Below, in pieces: positions 24,047 through 32,454 of a stretch of DNA of 32,454 nucleotides. The stretch is from the IMG/VR virus record IMGVR_UViG_3300027759_000276, positions 1-32,454 of that record. One strand, given 5' to 3'. The first letter of the stretch is position 1. The number at the start of each line of letters is the position of its first letter. Under the pieces are notes generated by a model. It did no database searches, had not been told where the DNA came from, and was given only the letters and a program-made list of their open reading frames with translations. The position numbers and the translations under genes were made by a program. The stretch comes from a virus.

Positions 24047-24398
24047 AACGCTTTACGAGATTGTTCTTACGCCACTCTTTGGTGGCTACATCTTTCTTAT
24101 TCGTTTGGCTCAGTGCTGATCTAGCGTGTTCCATGCAGCCCCTGGCTGCCATGATTCGCCAAATATCACTGCGCTCATCTTCCCAACCAAGCTCCGTGAG
24201 CTGCACCGAAAGTTCGCTGAAAGTCTTGGCTGCCCACTTGATGTCTTCCATAACTAAGACTGGGACATCGAGCCTGCAGTTGACGCCACGGCCAATGCGG
24301 TTGAAGTACTTGGCCAGCTGCTTGCGGTTTAAGTCTTTCTCACCATCAAAGGGTTTGACGTGTTCGTAGATTGGGAGCGTTGATCTATAGCCAGTCAT
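24045..24398 (-). CDS. Unknown protein downstream of the serine recombinase
   Basis: 117 residues, starting on the recombinase stop (TAATG). It is helical, charged and Trp-containing (EDIKWAAKTFSELSVQLTELGWEDERSDIWRI), with a basic end (KKDVATKEWRKNNLVKR). No membrane segment and no recognised motif. Translational coupling to the recombinase suggests a partner or co-regulated early protein. Confidence 0.75.
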   Translation of the reverse strand: MTGYRSTLPIYEHVKPFDGEKDLNRKQLAKYFNRIGRGVNCRLDVPVLVMEDIKWAAKTFSELSVQLTELGWEDERSDIWRIMAARGCMEHARSALSQTNKKDVATKEWRKNNLVKR

Positions 24399-25084
24399 TA
24401 CTTAGCTCCAATTCTTTTGAGCAAGTTGCTGACCTGGCTGGGATTCCACAGGGAGTTACCACGTGGTGTTTCAATGCCACGTGCTGTCAGTGCTGTTGCG
24501 ATATCACGCAAGGTGCTGGCGCCAGACTTTTTGATGATGTCGTTGACCACTGGTGCGACACGGTCAGCATATTTGTCGGCCTGCTGCTTAATCACTTTGA
24601 CGCCAGCCTCTGAGCCGATCTCTGGTGTTGGGCTGCCGAGTACTTTACCTCTGCGCTTTAGTGCCTGCAAAGCCTGGCTAGTGCGCTCAGAGATGCGCTT
24701 GGCCTCATACTCAGCAAAGACAGCCATCATCTGCAGGAATGTACGGTCAGCCTCTGGCATATCAGCGCAGACAAATGGAACTTTTCCGTTGAGCAATGTA
24801 GAGATGAACTCCACATCACGTGCTAGGCGATCCAGCTTGGCCACTACTAACGTGGCTTTCTGCTTTTTAGCCAGGTCAAGTGCAGCCATAAGGCTTGGAC
24901 GGTCCTTGAGTTTTTTGCGTGTGCCTGATTCAATCTCGGTGTACTCACCAATGATTGACCATTTGCCACCATTGAGAAATGTACTAACCAACTCTCTTTG
25001 AGCCTCTAAGCCAAGGCCTGATACGCCCTGCTTGTCTGTTGATACTCGGTAGTACGCTACGAATTTGCCTGTGTGCGGTGTCAT
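24398..25084 (-). CDS. Serine recombinase (resolvase/invertase family)
   Basis: 228 residues. The catalytic N-terminal domain is complete: YYRVSTDKQG with nucleophile S15 and R13, then KLDRLARD (R86, R89) and a FLQMMAVFAEYEAKRISERT helix. The C-terminal part (STLRDIATALTARGIETPRG, then LWNPSQVSNLLKRIG) is the short DNA-binding helix set of small resolvase-type recombinases. It lacks the long C-terminal domain of large serine integrases, so multimer resolution or inversion is more likely than standard integration. AGGAG lies eight bases before the ATG. It is the first gene of the leftward operon. Confidence 0.92.
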   Translation of the reverse strand: MTPHTGKFVAYYRVSTDKQGVSGLGLEAQRELVSTFLNGGKWSIIGEYTEIESGTRKKLKDRPSLMAALDLAKKQKATLVVAKLDRLARDVEFISTLLNGKVPFVCADMPEADRTFLQMMAVFAEYEAKRISERTSQALQALKRRGKVLGSPTPEIGSEAGVKVIKQQADKYADRVAPVVNDIIKKSGASTLRDIATALTARGIETPRGNSLWNPSQVSNLLKRIGAK

Positions 25085-26880: not shown

Positions 26881-27107
26881 AACACAAGTACATCTACAGG
26901 AAGGCCAGCAATGCGCCCTCACCCAGCCTGGAATGCCTGCTGATGGCGTGTGGCAGAGAGTTGTTAACGACTTGGGAAGTCTTGCGGGACAAGGAGTTGA
27001 TCGAGAGGCATCTAAAGGCGCTAGACGCTCTATATGGCGCAAACGCAGAGGCCAAGGTACGCCAGTACATGAGAGAGATCTACAGAAATGAGCGCAATGC
27101 CAGATAA
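26877..27107 (+). CDS. Small protein preceding the replication initiator
   Basis: 76 residues. Basic at both ends (MKHKYIYRKASNAPSPS; YMREIYRNERNAR) with helices between (ECLLMACGRELLTTWEVLRDKELIERHLKALDALYG). No family recognised. It starts in an ATGA overlap and extends 20 bases into the initiator gene. In lambdoid phages helicase loaders follow, not precede, the initiator, and this protein is far too small for one. Confidence 0.75.
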   Translation: MKHKYIYRKASNAPSPSLECLLMACGRELLTTWEVLRDKELIERHLKALDALYGANAEAKVRQYMREIYRNERNAR

Positions 27108-28011
27108 CGTGCTGCCCTTTGAGATGCCTGCTAAACCCAGGATCAAACAACAAGACGCCCTACCCGATCAGAGAAAGATCGTAGTAATGCCATTCAAAGC
27201 CATCTTTGATGAGAGGCTCAATCACGGTACATTAAGAACACTATCGGCCATTGCAGCATTCAGCAATCGAGCTGGGATCACTTGGGTTAGCCAGGTACGC
27301 ATATCCAAAGACCTAAAGATAAGCCAGCAAGCAGTTAGCAAGCAAGTTACCCAGCTCAAAGCACTGGGCTACATAGAAGTAGTCAAGAAGGGTTTCCATG
27401 GCAAGTCAACAGACACCATCAGGATCATCTTTGATGCAGAGATTACAGCTGCAGAGGCCATAGCAATGGTCAGCAACAAGGAAGACGCCAGGCCACCAGG
27501 TCAGATAGAGGCTGAAGAAAAAAGGTTACAAAAAGAAGTAGACCAAGAAGGCCTCAAACGCATCCAGGACATGATCAGACAGTCACTAACCACCACAACC
27601 AAGCAGGCACAAAAGGAGTACCAAATGCCACAAGACAATGAAACCATCACAGTCAAGAAGATGAAAGCAGAGATGAAAAAGAATATTACCAAGCCTGTGG
27701 ATAAGTCAGCTAAAAAGGCTCACGTAGACAACCCCCAGGTTGTACATGGAGAGAGCCACATAGACAACCTCCAGGTTGTTAACGTAGACAACCTCCAGGT
27801 TGTAGAGAACACCGTATTTAACACTATATCTATTAATATTAATGTTATGAACAACAAAGAATTAAAGAAGTATTCAAAAGCTGAGATCGAGTCCAAGCTC
27901 GAACTGTTGCTGCCTGCCTACCAAGCCGAGGGCATCGAGCCTACAGAACAGGCTCTGGTTGATGGAATCATGCACATGATGGCAACCCAAGCCAAGATGA
28001 ATGCTGTTTAA
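27088..28011 (+). CDS. Winged-helix replication initiator, lambda O-like in layout
   Basis: 307 residues. Residues about 45-110 form a winged helix: HGTLRTLSAIAAFSNRAGIT, then VRISKDLKISQQAVSKQVTQL and ALGYIEVVKKG. A Lys/Glu-rich linker follows. Residues 213-239 repeat (V/I)DN(P/L)QVV three times, which is the translation of three DNA iterons. The C-terminal 55 residues are a separate helical domain (KAEIESKLELLLPAYQAEGIEP). Lambda O likewise has an N-terminal iteron-binding winged helix, a linker encoded by the origin and a C-terminal helicase-loading part. Sequence similarity to O itself is not evident, so the call rests on fold, iterons and gene position. Confidence 0.8.
   Translation: MSAMPDNVLPFEMPAKPRIKQQDALPDQRKIVVMPFKAIFDERLNHGTLRTLSAIAAFSNRAGITWVSQVRISKDLKISQQAVSKQVTQLKALGYIEVVKKGFHGKSTDTIRIIFDAEITAAEAIAMVSNKEDARPPGQIEAEEKRLQKEVDQEGLKRIQDMIRQSLTTTTKQAQKEYQMPQDNETITVKKMKAEMKKNITKPVDKSAKKAHVDNPQVVHGESHIDNLQVVNVDNLQVVENTVFNTISININVMNNKELKKYSKAEIESKLELLLPAYQAEGIEPTEQALVDGIMHMMATQAKMNAV
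27696..27870. other. Candidate replication origin inside the initiator gene
   Basis: In order: a perfect DnaA box TTATCCACA on the - strand (27704-27696); three iterons TAGACAACC(C/T)CCAGGTTGT at 27725-27743, 27761-27779 and 27785-27803, each an inverted repeat (ACAACCT-CC-AGGTTGT in the last two); then an AT-rich stretch with about 13 G/C in 60 bases (27811-27870) that includes the palindrome ATTAATATTAAT (27832-27843). Iterons next to an AT-rich unwinding element within the initiator gene is the architecture of the lambda origin. Activity is inferred. Confidence 0.75.
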
Positions 28012-28358
28012 ACGCAATCTAAGCCACCTAGAAGGCCTGTAATATGCAAAGTCAATACCTAGGTAGCCACCAAGCAATTCAAGGCCTTGTAGAGCCTGTT
28101 ATCTGCGCTTGTACAAAACCCAAAGGTTCGTCTGCAATATGTACAGAGGAGGCACTTCCCTATAGAGAGAGCGCTTTGTACAGGCCAGGGGGATGCTTGA
28201 ATGATGCGAAATGGCATCTGAGTACGAAAGCACTACACCTCCCCCCACCCCACCACCTGTGCGATAGGGGGCTTCTCTGAATTTTTCCCCCCTTTCTCCA
28301 TGAGTACCTTTTACTACATTCACATTTTCTCTATTTTTTCAACCAAAGGACTAAGTTA
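28012..28358. other. Intergenic region between initiator and SSB-like gene
   Basis: No convincing gene; an open frame here has no ribosome site and odd composition. It holds a perfect palindrome TACCTAGGTA (28056-28065), a C-rich run (28238-28257) whose complement GGTGGTGGGGTGGGGGGAGG could form a G-quadruplex, and a GGGGG (28266-28271) that could pair with the C run. Near the end TTTACT (28310-28315) and TATTTT (28332-28337), 16 bases apart, are a weak promoter candidate for the packaging genes. AAAGGA before the ATG at 28359 is the ribosome site. Confidence 0.5.
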
Positions 28359-28693: not shown

Positions 28694-28933
28694 ATGACTG
28701 ATAAACAAATACCAGCATTCCCCGTTGCCTTCAAATGGGGCGATGAATTAAGCCAATACAACGGCATGACCTTGCGTGATTACTTTGCTGCCAAGGTGTT
28801 GCATGGAGTCATGTCGAGTGTAGAGATGGGCATCGTATTTTCTAAAGGCGATAAACCCCCATCAAATGAAATTGCTGAATCTTGCTACGCAATGGCGGAC
28901 GCAATGCTTGAAGCTCGCAATGGCCAGAACTAA
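28694..28933 (+). CDS. Conserved phage protein of unknown function
   Basis: 79 residues, with GAGGTAAG before the ATG. The central NGMTLRDYFAAKVLHG and the end ESCYAMADAMLEAR form a pattern I know from very many phage genomes, always unassigned. No membrane segment. It overlaps the terminase small subunit start by 14 bases. Confidence 0.8.
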   Translation: MTDKQIPAFPVAFKWGDELSQYNGMTLRDYFAAKVLHGVMSSVEMGIVFSKGDKPPSNEIAESCYAMADAMLEARNGQN

Positions 28934-29369
28934 GTACCCGACTCAGATCCCACCAGTTGCTGGCTGGGGTGGCACTCGTTCCATTGTCAGGCGTTTGGAG
29001 CGCTCCACTACGCTGGTCAAGAACAAGGAGGCCACTGCGTATGCTTTGCTGGCCATGGCTAACACCAAGATCACAGACATCATGTCGTGGGATGAGAATG
29101 GCCATGTGAAGGTCAAGCCTAGCCACTTGATCCCAGAGACTGCGCTGATGTCTATTAAGAACATCAAGGTGCGTGTGGACAAGGACGGTGCGTCTACGCT
29201 GGAGATTGATCTCTATGACAAGGTGGCGGTGCTGCGGATCCTGGCTAAAGCTAGTGGTTTGCTGGACAACCCAGACAATGAGGACAAGCCTAGCGTGATT
29301 GGTATCAATGTACGTGCGCCAGATGTTGTGGATGTAGAAGACAAACCAAGGGATGACCATGAAAACTAA
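28920..29369 (+). CDS. Terminase small subunit
   Basis: 149 residues from the ATG at 28920 (ARTKYPTQIPPVAGWGG start); an in-frame upstream codon at 28866 lies deep in the previous gene. Helical residues about 35-60 (SIVRRLERSTTLVKNKEATAYALLAMANTK) are followed by a mixed segment and an acidic C-terminus. Called from size and from its place directly before, and overlapping by about 11 bases, the large subunit; the sequence motif itself is weak. Small subunits bind the packaging site and regulate the motor. Confidence 0.75.
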   Translation: MARTKYPTQIPPVAGWGGTRSIVRRLERSTTLVKNKEATAYALLAMANTKITDIMSWDENGHVKVKPSHLIPETALMSIKNIKVRVDKDGASTLEIDLYDKVAVLRILAKASGLLDNPDNEDKPSVIGINVRAPDVVDVEDKPRDDHEN

Positions 29370-30915
29370 AGAGCATTCGCCACGTGAATTGCCAATGGCT
29401 GGCTTGAATCTGGACTTCAGTAAAAGCCCAATCGTCTATGACATGATACAAAGCAATGCCTTTGTACAAGGCTTAATGGGTCCTGTTGGCTCTGGTAAGT
29501 CTTATGCCTGTGCAGCCAAGATCATGATCAAAGCTGTCCAGCAAAAGCCATCCCCTGTGGACGGTATCAAGTATTCACGCTGGGCGGTGGTGCGTAACAG
29601 CTACCCCATGCTCAAGACCACCACTATCAAGACATGGCTAGATCTCTTCCCAGAGGCCACCTTTGGTAATCTGCTGTGGACGCCACCGATTACGCATCAC
29701 ATTAGACTGCCTGCCAGAGGTGACGCTGCTGGCATTGACTGCGAGATTATTTTCTTAGCCCTTGATCAACCAAAAGACGTGCGTAAGTTGCTCTCACTGG
29801 AGCTGACTGGTGCGTGGGTGAATGAGGCACGTGAGTTACCAAAGGCTGTGATTGATGGCCTCACCCACCGTGTTGGCCGATACCCTACCAAGCGTGATGG
29901 TGGTGCTACCTGGCACGGCATCATCATGGATACCAACCCGATGGATGATGATCACTGGTGGCATCGAGTAGCTGAGAAAGAGCCAATCACTGGCAAGTAC
30001 GCATGGAAGTTTTTTAAGCAGCCTGGTGGTGTGCTTGAAGTGGCTAAAGAAGATCTGCCAGAAAACCCAGAGGCCAATGACCATATTTTCGCAAGTGGCA
30101 AATGGTGGCGTCTAAATGAGAAAGCAGAGAACGTCAACAACCTACCCGCTGGCTACTATATGCAGCAGCTGGCTGGCAAAAACTTAGACTGGATTCGCTG
30201 TTATGCCCAAGGCGTCTACACCTTTGTAAAGGACGGTCAAAGCGTCTGGCCTGAGTACGATGACAACATCATGGCTGCCGAACTGGAGGCAGATCCTAAT
30301 TTGCCTATCCAAGTCGGTCTAGACTTTGGATTGACGCCTGCAGCAGTCTTTGGTCAGCGCCATCCAAGTGGCCAGTGGCGTGTATTGCATGAGATCGTTA
30401 CCTTTGACATGGGTCTAGAGCGCTTTGGCCAGCAATTGCTCACCGAGTTGCAGACTAGGTTCCCAAAATATGAGGTACGCATATGGGGTGACCCTGCGGG
30501 TATGCAGCGTGACGCCATTTATGAAACTACTGCGTTTGAATATCTGCGCTCACTAGGGCTAAAAGCAGAGCCAACTGCGACAAACGACTTCAAAGCCAGG
30601 CGTGAGGCTGCAGCTGCGCCAATGAACCGCATGGTTATGGGTAAACCTGGCTTACTTATCCACAAGCAATGCAAGTTATTGCGTAAGTCTCTCTCTGGTG
30701 GCTATCACTTTAAGCGTATTGCTGTCGGTGCTGGCCACGAAAGATTCAAAGATACGCCAAATAAGAACGAACACTCGCACGTGGGTGACGCATTTGGGTA
30801 CTTACTCACTGGTGGCGGTGAATATCGCCAGCTGACCAGGGGATCTAACCGCACAAATGGCAAAGTCTTCATTGCTCAAACTATTGCATCGGATGATTTT
30901 GATGTATTTGCCTGA
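29359..30915 (+). CDS. Terminase large subunit
   Basis: 518 residues from the ATG at 29359, favoured over an ATG at 29353 because AAGGGA is then six bases upstream. Walker A is GPVGSGKS (G41-S48), the Walker B region is LTGAWVNEAREL (E156), and the C-terminal RNase H-like nuclease has VGLDFGLTP (D322), IWGDPAG (D378) and HVGDAFGYLL. It is the ATP-driven motor and cutter that packages DNA through the portal. Ends with a 14-base overlap into the next gene. Confidence 0.95.
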   Translation: MKTKEHSPRELPMAGLNLDFSKSPIVYDMIQSNAFVQGLMGPVGSGKSYACAAKIMIKAVQQKPSPVDGIKYSRWAVVRNSYPMLKTTTIKTWLDLFPEATFGNLLWTPPITHHIRLPARGDAAGIDCEIIFLALDQPKDVRKLLSLELTGAWVNEARELPKAVIDGLTHRVGRYPTKRDGGATWHGIIMDTNPMDDDHWWHRVAEKEPITGKYAWKFFKQPGGVLEVAKEDLPENPEANDHIFASGKWWRLNEKAENVNNLPAGYYMQQLAGKNLDWIRCYAQGVYTFVKDGQSVWPEYDDNIMAAELEADPNLPIQVGLDFGLTPAAVFGQRHPSGQWRVLHEIVTFDMGLERFGQQLLTELQTRFPKYEVRIWGDPAGMQRDAIYETTAFEYLRSLGLKAEPTATNDFKARREAAAAPMNRMVMGKPGLLIHKQCKLLRKSLSGGYHFKRIAVGAGHERFKDTPNKNEHSHVGDAFGYLLTGGGEYRQLTRGSNRTNGKVFIAQTIASDDFDVFA

Positions 30916-31784: not shown

Positions 31785-32372
31785 ATGTCAATCATTTACG
31801 TCACCAGAGAATCTGAGAATCAAAAAGCGCAATTCGTTGCGCTTACTCAGAAAGATAAAGATGGCCGACAAGTTATCTCTGGCAGTGACTATCCTGCAAT
31901 CAGTGCAGATGTAAACCATGTGAGGATGCATGAAGGCCGTGCATTCTTTGCATGGCATATGAACCCATCTGCTACACCACTTGCAGCTGGCGCCAGCATA
32001 AATATTGTGATGGCGTCCAATGCTGGCATTACTCCACATATTACTGCTGGCTATGCGTGTGGTGGTGATTGCGAGTTCTATATTTATCAAGGAACAGCTA
32101 CCACTGGTGGTACAGCATTTACACCAGTTAATAGAAATAGAACAAGTTCTACTGTAAGTGAATGTGCGATGGTCATCAATCCAACCATTACATCACTTGG
32201 CACATTGATTGATGCCCAGGTTGGTCCTGGTGGCAGCGGTCCAAAGGCAGGCGGTGGAACAGGCTCTGGCCTGGAATATGTATTTAGCTCATTGACTAAC
32301 TTTCACTTTAGGTTGACCAATGTGTCAAGCAAAGCAGAGATAGCAATTTTAACTTTAGAGTGGTACGAATAA
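31785..32372 (+). CDS. Putative virion protein, complete copy (195 aa)
   Basis: 195 residues, beta-rich throughout: MSIIYVTRESENQKAQFVAL start, a central FFAWHMNPSATPLAAGASINIVM region, a Gly-rich loop (GPGGSGPKAGGGTGSG) and a C-terminal NFHFRLTNVSSKAEIAILTLEWYE. The jelly-roll-like strand pattern and the position among head-assembly genes suggest a capsid-surface or tail protein. I recall similar proteins in other phages without known role. The 3' 231 bases are repeated at the window start with two residue changes. Confidence 0.85.
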   Translation: MSIIYVTRESENQKAQFVALTQKDKDGRQVISGSDYPAISADVNHVRMHEGRAFFAWHMNPSATPLAAGASINIVMASNAGITPHITAGYACGGDCEFYIYQGTATTGGTAFTPVNRNRTSSTVSECAMVINPTITSLGTLIDAQVGPGGSGPKAGGGTGSGLEYVFSSLTNFHFRLTNVSSKAEIAILTLEWYE

Positions 32373-32454
32373 TGGAAGACTTTACAAAAGGTGAATGCCC
32401 AGCTGTTTTAAAAGACAAACAGTTAAGCATTAAGAACCACCACATTTGCATTGT
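32142..32454. repeat. Terminal direct repeat, right copy
   Basis: Copy of 1-313, differing at 32269 and 32346. Joining the copies rebuilds the 195-aa gene and the Cys-rich gene without a break, which supports a closed map of 32,141 bases. Confidence 0.95.
32372..32454 (+). CDS. 5' part of the Cys-rich protein gene, cut by the window end
   Basis: The first 27 codons of the protein encoded in full at 231-656, starting at an ATG overlapping the previous stop (TAATG). These bases are identical to the left copy. Confidence 0.9.
   Translation, partial: MEDFTKGECPAVLKDKQLSIKNHHICI

Follow-up and report, generated by a model that had tools for sequence, protein, structure and literature searches.

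An initiator gene carrying a candidate lambda-type replication origin in a phage genome, and the joint switching of its putative DNA-reading helix and iterons among relatives

Organization of the locus

The window, that is, the whole phage record of 32,454 bases, carries a gene for a protein of 307 amino acids, which is matched by the Pfam profile HTH_36 (2.3e-7) as well as by PHROG 391 and 678, and for which an AF2 model was built. An SSB-like gene follows it, and then unknown and terminase genes. The features of this locus are the following:

27088-28011, plus strand: initiator gene
27193-27426, plus strand: winged-helix DNA-binding domain, codons 36-113
27322-27348, plus strand: putative recognition helix SQQAVSKQV, codons 79-87, nine residues that match the iteron class across relatives
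27682-27822, plus strand: linker carrying the DnaA box and the iterons, codons 199-245
27696-27704, minus strand: DnaA box TTATCCACA (TGTGGATAA on the plus strand), exact match
27725-27743, plus strand: iteron 1, palindrome 27728-27743, ACAACC CCCA GGTTGT (repeat search)
27761-27779, plus strand: iteron 2, palindrome 27764-27779, ACAACC TCCA GGTTGT (repeat search)
27785-27803, plus strand: iteron 3, palindrome 27788-27803, ACAACC TCCA GGTTGT (repeat search)
27815-27874, plus strand: A+T-rich block, putative DNA unwinding element, least stable 60-bp window of the record
27823-28005, plus strand: C-terminal helical domain, codons 246-306

Within the gene the order is DnaA box, three iterons and A+T-rich block. 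A first-pass annotation had described this arrangement inside the coding sequence of a winged-helix protein, with a perfect box on the minus strand at 27704-27696, and all of its coordinates proved right. The 19-base iteron unit is TAGACAACC(C/T)CCAGGTTGT, the three copies differing by one mismatch; each contains the inverted repeat ACAACC-N4-GGTTGT, and their starts are spaced by 36 and 24 bases. The same annotation had noticed three (V/I)DN(P/L)QVV repeats at residues 213-239 of the protein, and these are indeed the peptides encoded by the iterons: VDNPQVV (213-219), IDNLQVV (225-231) and VDNLQVV (233-239). When up to 2 mismatches were allowed, no further copy of ACAACC-N4-GGTTGT was found elsewhere in the window. 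This 2-mismatch search is not significant by itself, since at least three hits were returned in 20 of 100 shuffles, and the weight of the iteron evidence lies rather in the exactness of the copies, their clustering and the relatives.

The 60-bp window starting at 27815 has a stability of -1.028 kcal/mol per step, to be compared with a mean of -1.387 (sd 0.076) over the 32.5-kb record. In fact, the least stable windows of 40, 60 and 80 bp in the genome start at 27815, 27815 and 27800, respectively. The GC-skew profile, which had been put forward as a check on the origin, takes no turn at the 27.7-kb site and tracks the gene strand.

The region downstream of the initiator gene

A 347-nt gap (28012-28358) separates the initiator gene from the SSB-like gene. 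It holds a noncoding element at 28236-28298, about 250-320 nt downstream, composed of C-tracts and GGGG, then AAWTTTTCCCC and a T-run, with bases that are invariant in 38 diverse relatives, where it lies at a similar distance independently of the iteron class. Possible roles are those of a terminator, a packaging site or a component of the replication region. As regards RNA structure, the gap gave a z-score of -0.7, the conserved element 3 pairs with no covariation, and there was no Rfam match.

It might be this element that forms the actual origin or an indispensable portion of it, the repeats within the gene serving just to nucleate initiator binding. In favour of this, the element is present in diverse relatives whatever their iteron type, and the 60- and 80-bp stretches of the window that rank second in instability adjoin it (28324 and 28302). 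Nevertheless, it is devoid of class-specific initiator sites, it looks equally like a terminator or a packaging site, and the A+T-rich block beside the iterons is less stable, so that we consider this explanation unlikely.

Close relatives (the window, L002, L010, L015 and L017) have one or the other of two sequence variants of the gap itself, again independently of iteron type, which suggests further recombination at the junction between the initiator gene and the downstream sequence.

The initiator protein

The AF2 model, built from 41 sequences (mean pLDDT 66.5, pTM 0.37), predicts a winged-helix DNA-binding domain, a disordered linker and a C-terminal helical domain. Both folded parts are fairly confident, with pLDDT values mostly of 70-90 in the winged helix and of about 80-89 past residue 250, while residues 199-245 fall below 50, this predicted disorder coinciding with the codons of the candidate origin. 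The low pTM leaves the arrangement of the domains open. Residues E281, G282 and P285 of the C-terminal domain are invariant in the 41 sequences, and this domain may bind a partner, either the helicase or the loader of the host.

The O-like "replication initiation" profiles PHROG 391 and 678 match the protein at about 7e-8. Among solved structures, the matches were to generic winged helices of MarR-like or other regulators, with best E values of 2.2e-3 by fold and 1.3e-3 by sequence; other phage HTH proteins also appeared among the structural matches, and neither the fold nor the sequence search of solved structures returned an initiator.

Palindromic operators are typical of MarR-like regulators, and the fold of the protein resembles these best among solved structures. 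The palindromes might therefore be operators at which such a regulator represses or roadblocks transcription inside its own gene, the origin lying elsewhere. However, the sites are 640-700 nt downstream of the start codon, next to a DnaA box and to the least stable stretch of the genome, the window has no other copies of the palindrome, and the best phage profiles are those of replication initiators. Operators as the sole function are thus quite unlikely; autoregulatory binding in addition to origin function is compatible with these data.

Co-variation of the DNA-binding domain and the iterons

A set of 69 relatives of the gene (95% non-redundant) was analysed. It contains five palindrome types, each paired with a type of recognition helix:

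QQAV(A/S)KQ(F/V): ACAACC-N4-GGTTGT
QQA(I/V)SKHL: ACAACC-N6-GGTTGT
RQA(V/I)(T/S)(K/R)Q(M/V/I): GCAACC-N6-GGTTGC
RQ(N/A/S)(I/V)TNQ(L/M/V): GGACAC-N6-GTGTCC
QPAISRQ(I/V): GTTATC-N6-GATAAC

The classes were assigned by a scoring rule of our own and had first been recognised in a subset of these data. As exceptions, L128, L166 and L177 deviate from the pairing, L082 was left unassigned, and L104, L109 and L153 were missed by the helix pattern.

The iteron type follows the segment that encodes the DNA-binding domain. On the tree of this domain 4 changes of iteron type are needed, which is the minimum, as against 13 on the tree of the middle segment, 20 for the C-terminus, 22 for the N-tail and 18 for the middle plus C-terminal part, these counts being approximate because the trees are based on few columns and are weakly supported. 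Similarly, for relatives less than 65% identical, the type of the nearest neighbour predicted the iteron type in 84% of cases with the domain, 27% with the middle segment and 12% with the C-terminus. Since the middle segment lies physically between the domain and the iterons, linkage does not explain this pattern. The genes L006 (window type) and L011 (GTTATC type) illustrate the point: their A+T-rich block and C-terminus are nearly the same, but their domain and iterons differ. As judged from these comparisons, the putative DNA-reading helix and its iteron site switch together in about 70 relatives.

Alternatively, a protein other than the initiator, for example the nearby small terminase, might read the repeats as a packaging (pac) or partition site. 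Packaging sites often lie near the small terminase gene, and such a gene is presumed at 28866-29369, about 1 kb downstream, from its position beside the large terminase and from the annotation of phage MEP301. Nevertheless, the window and L010 differ in iteron type, yet their small terminase DNA is 94.6% identical (28892-29352), so that this protein is an unlikely reader of both types; moreover, it is the initiator's own DNA-binding domain that the iteron type follows. A packaging or partition site is accordingly very improbable.

Conservation of the repeats as DNA

As a control, synonymous codons were permuted within each gene, leaving the protein and the codon use unchanged. Three copies of the window palindrome arose in 1 of 5,000 such shuffles of the initiator gene, and the frequency was the same when any 6-base arm with a spacer of 4 was accepted. 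The total count of any palindrome per gene is noisy and was replaced by the multiplicity of one arm. With this measure, 47 of the 69 genes contained two or more exact copies of a single palindrome with 6-base arms, compared with 8 of 2,760 synonymous shuffles. The test was weak for lambda O (2 copies; 8 of 2,000 shuffles), because the lambda iterons are imperfect, and it therefore misses degenerate arrays.

In genes of the ACAACC-N6 class the iteron is read in two frames, giving unrelated AQPPEVV-like and TTS(R/E)GC-like peptides, in 19 of 19 cases, which is the clearest indication from the sequences that the DNA, and not the peptide, is conserved. In the N4 genes conservation is 90-100% at each position of the arms, and 40-53% at three of the four spacer positions. 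The iteron repeats do not follow from the encoded peptide. That they are a protein repeat kept for protein function, the DNA repeat being a by-product, is hardly credible: the copies do stand in one frame, with a repeated peptide, in the window as in almost every N4 gene, but the rarity of three copies in the shuffles, the two-frame reading and the predicted disorder of the linker all argue against it.

The absence of conserved palindromes from relatives with the same protein had been named by the first-pass annotation as an observation that would count against an origin. The shuffle results indicate that they are kept throughout much of the close family, whereas MEP301, which of the relatives examined is the farthest removed (its DNA-binding domain is 35% identical), has a shorter initiator gene than the window, and no such iteron repeats were found in it.

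DnaA boxes and A+T-rich blocks in relatives

Strict DnaA boxes are about nine-fold enriched: the 69 genes contain 68 of them, every one in the 3' half of its gene, as against 7.2 in the shuffles. The box precedes the iterons in the window's class, in the GTTATC class and in most GGACAC genes, and lies between them in most ACAACC-N6 and several GCAACC-N6 genes; the order seen in the window is therefore not universal. L071 has one box in the reverse orientation and in another frame. The DnaA box first proposed is present in the window and frequent in the family, but a strict box occurs in 44 genes and is absent from 25, so that the use of DnaA is probable rather than general. The AT-richest block is found 3' of the last iteron in 62 of the 69 relatives.

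A lone half-site (GTTCTGCACAACC, GTTCTAGGCAACC) lies downstream of the A+T-rich block in relatives such as L045, L086 and L100. It agrees with the class of the iterons in most genes of the ACAACC and GCAACC types, partly in GGACAC genes and not in GTTATC genes, so that its following the iteron class is suggestive only. The counterpart in the window is just a degenerate AACAAC at 27850-27855. Elsewhere in the window, an exact DnaA box TTATCCACA is present on the plus strand at 30656, within the large terminase gene and with no iterons nearby.

Comparison with known origins

In lambda, ori is located inside O and consists of 19-bp inverted-repeat iterons bound by O dimers, with an adjoining 40-bp A+T-rich region, which the bound dimers melt (PMC5043065), and it is established that the N-terminal half of O binds the iterons (PMC4488673); the analogy in mechanism drawn here is based on these works and on PMC6022878. 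By position and sequence, the candidate origin resembles lambda in lying in the middle of the initiator gene, in having several inverted-repeat iterons of about 19 bp, here three with 6+4+6 palindromes, and in the easily melted block (about 40-49 bp) that adjoins them, here at 27815. Judging from the AF2 model, the protein may also share the layout of lambda O, namely an N-terminal DNA-binding domain, a flexible linker and a C-terminal partner domain. The differences are that lambda has four iterons and the window three, of other sequence and spacer, that in the window's family the array contains or adjoins perfect DnaA boxes, and that no adjacent P-type helicase-loader gene was recognised among the 30 ORFs scanned. 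A lack of obvious similarity to O had been remarked upon at the outset, and it holds for the direct comparison with lambda O (BLASTP E 1.3 over 18 residues; hhalign probability 0.2%) but not at the profile level, where the weak O-like PHROG matches are all that is shared. Because the direct comparison fails and no P was found, the protein is not filed as a member of the O family, though the layout features tested match lambda.

The lambdoid Shiga-toxin phages P27 and 933W also have in-gene iterons and an AT-rich region, with an iteron number that varies among relatives; their iteron is that of lambda, altered by few substitutions, whereas here five half-site/spacer combinations occur in one protein family (PMC7466680). 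In SPP1, repeats bound by the initiator gp38 lie in its own gene beside an AT-rich unwinding element (oriL), but they are direct repeats, and this phage has a second origin, oriR, with its own loader gp39 and helicase gp40 (PMC6316719). The window units are palindromic, and no loader or helicase was recognised among the 30 ORFs scanned. The iteron plasmids P1, RK2, R6K and pSC101 combine DnaA boxes, iterons and an A+T-rich region and depend on the host helicase, as may be the case here, their iterons being mostly direct repeats bound by initiator monomers, unlike the in-gene palindromes of the window (PMC5043065). The repABC plasmids have oriV inside repC (PMC9040568); with no RepC match in Pfam and no partition genes seen in the window phage, the likeness noted is that of in-gene position.

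Origins within genes are thus of a textbook kind, as in lambda, SPP1 (PMC6316719) and repABC plasmids (PMC9040568). What is new is the five-way pairing of helix and iteron, the presence of DnaA boxes inside the coding array and the initiator lineage itself; no account of this initiator family turned up in a limited search of the literature.

Proposed mechanism of initiation

The phage would replicate from an origin at positions 27696-27874 by means of an initiator encoded at 27088-28011, working in the lambda manner. The shuffles, the relatives and the co-variation of domain and iteron all favour this reading, which the first-pass annotation had suggested and to which we assign a probability of about 85%. 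A dimer of the N-terminal winged helix would occupy both arms of each palindromic iteron, and three bound dimers would strain the adjoining A+T-rich block until it opens. The C-terminal domain, on its flexible linker, would then recruit the host helicase machinery, probably assisted by host DnaA at the flanking box or boxes. The claim that the phage has no replisome of its own holds insofar as no helicase, P-type helicase loader, primase or polymerase was recognised among the 30 ORFs scanned with PHROGs, a set to which some short and structural ORFs do not belong; it does, however, encode SSB-like, RecT, YqaJ and RuvC-like proteins (Pfam and PHROG profiles). Given this gene content, it would have to be the C-terminal domain or DnaA that engages the host helicase. 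The origin would occupy codons of the disordered linker, a part of the protein under low constraint; the reader and its sites could therefore travel as one cassette and switch specificity together.

A broader proposal is offered tentatively, at somewhat less than even odds. The initiator lineage, not demonstrably related to lambda O and lacking a phage loader, would combine palindromic in-gene iterons with host DnaA boxes as a hybrid between lambda and plasmid origins; a few recognition-helix residues and the spacing of the half-sites would set at least five specificities, spread as domain-plus-iteron cassettes, and amount to a protein-DNA recognition code that records itself. Each gene states both the reader and its sites, and the family thus provides about 70 natural pairs that bear directly on the choice of an origin by a winged-helix initiator. 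It also points to a way in which replication may begin in a phage for which no helicase, loader, primase or polymerase was recognised. Moreover, a palindrome that recurs in two reading frames within a single gene could serve as a computational sign for coding-embedded origins in unannotated viruses.

Genome and host context

The record bears a 313-bp direct repeat at its ends (1-313 and 32142-32454, 99.4% identical), and is therefore probably a complete, circularly mapped genome. Two genome-collection scans for hosts and prophages returned no relative, and a plasmid search gave a single weak HTH match. The large terminase and head-tail connector share 73-75% identity with their counterparts in the Methylophilales phage MEP301, and a host of the methylotroph type is therefore likely. 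MEP301 is likewise reported to have no DNA polymerase (PMC8024684). The window phage also encodes a serine recombinase at 24398-25084, with a resolvase domain and a weak recombinase domain, and a resolvase-domain protein has been reported for MEP301 too.
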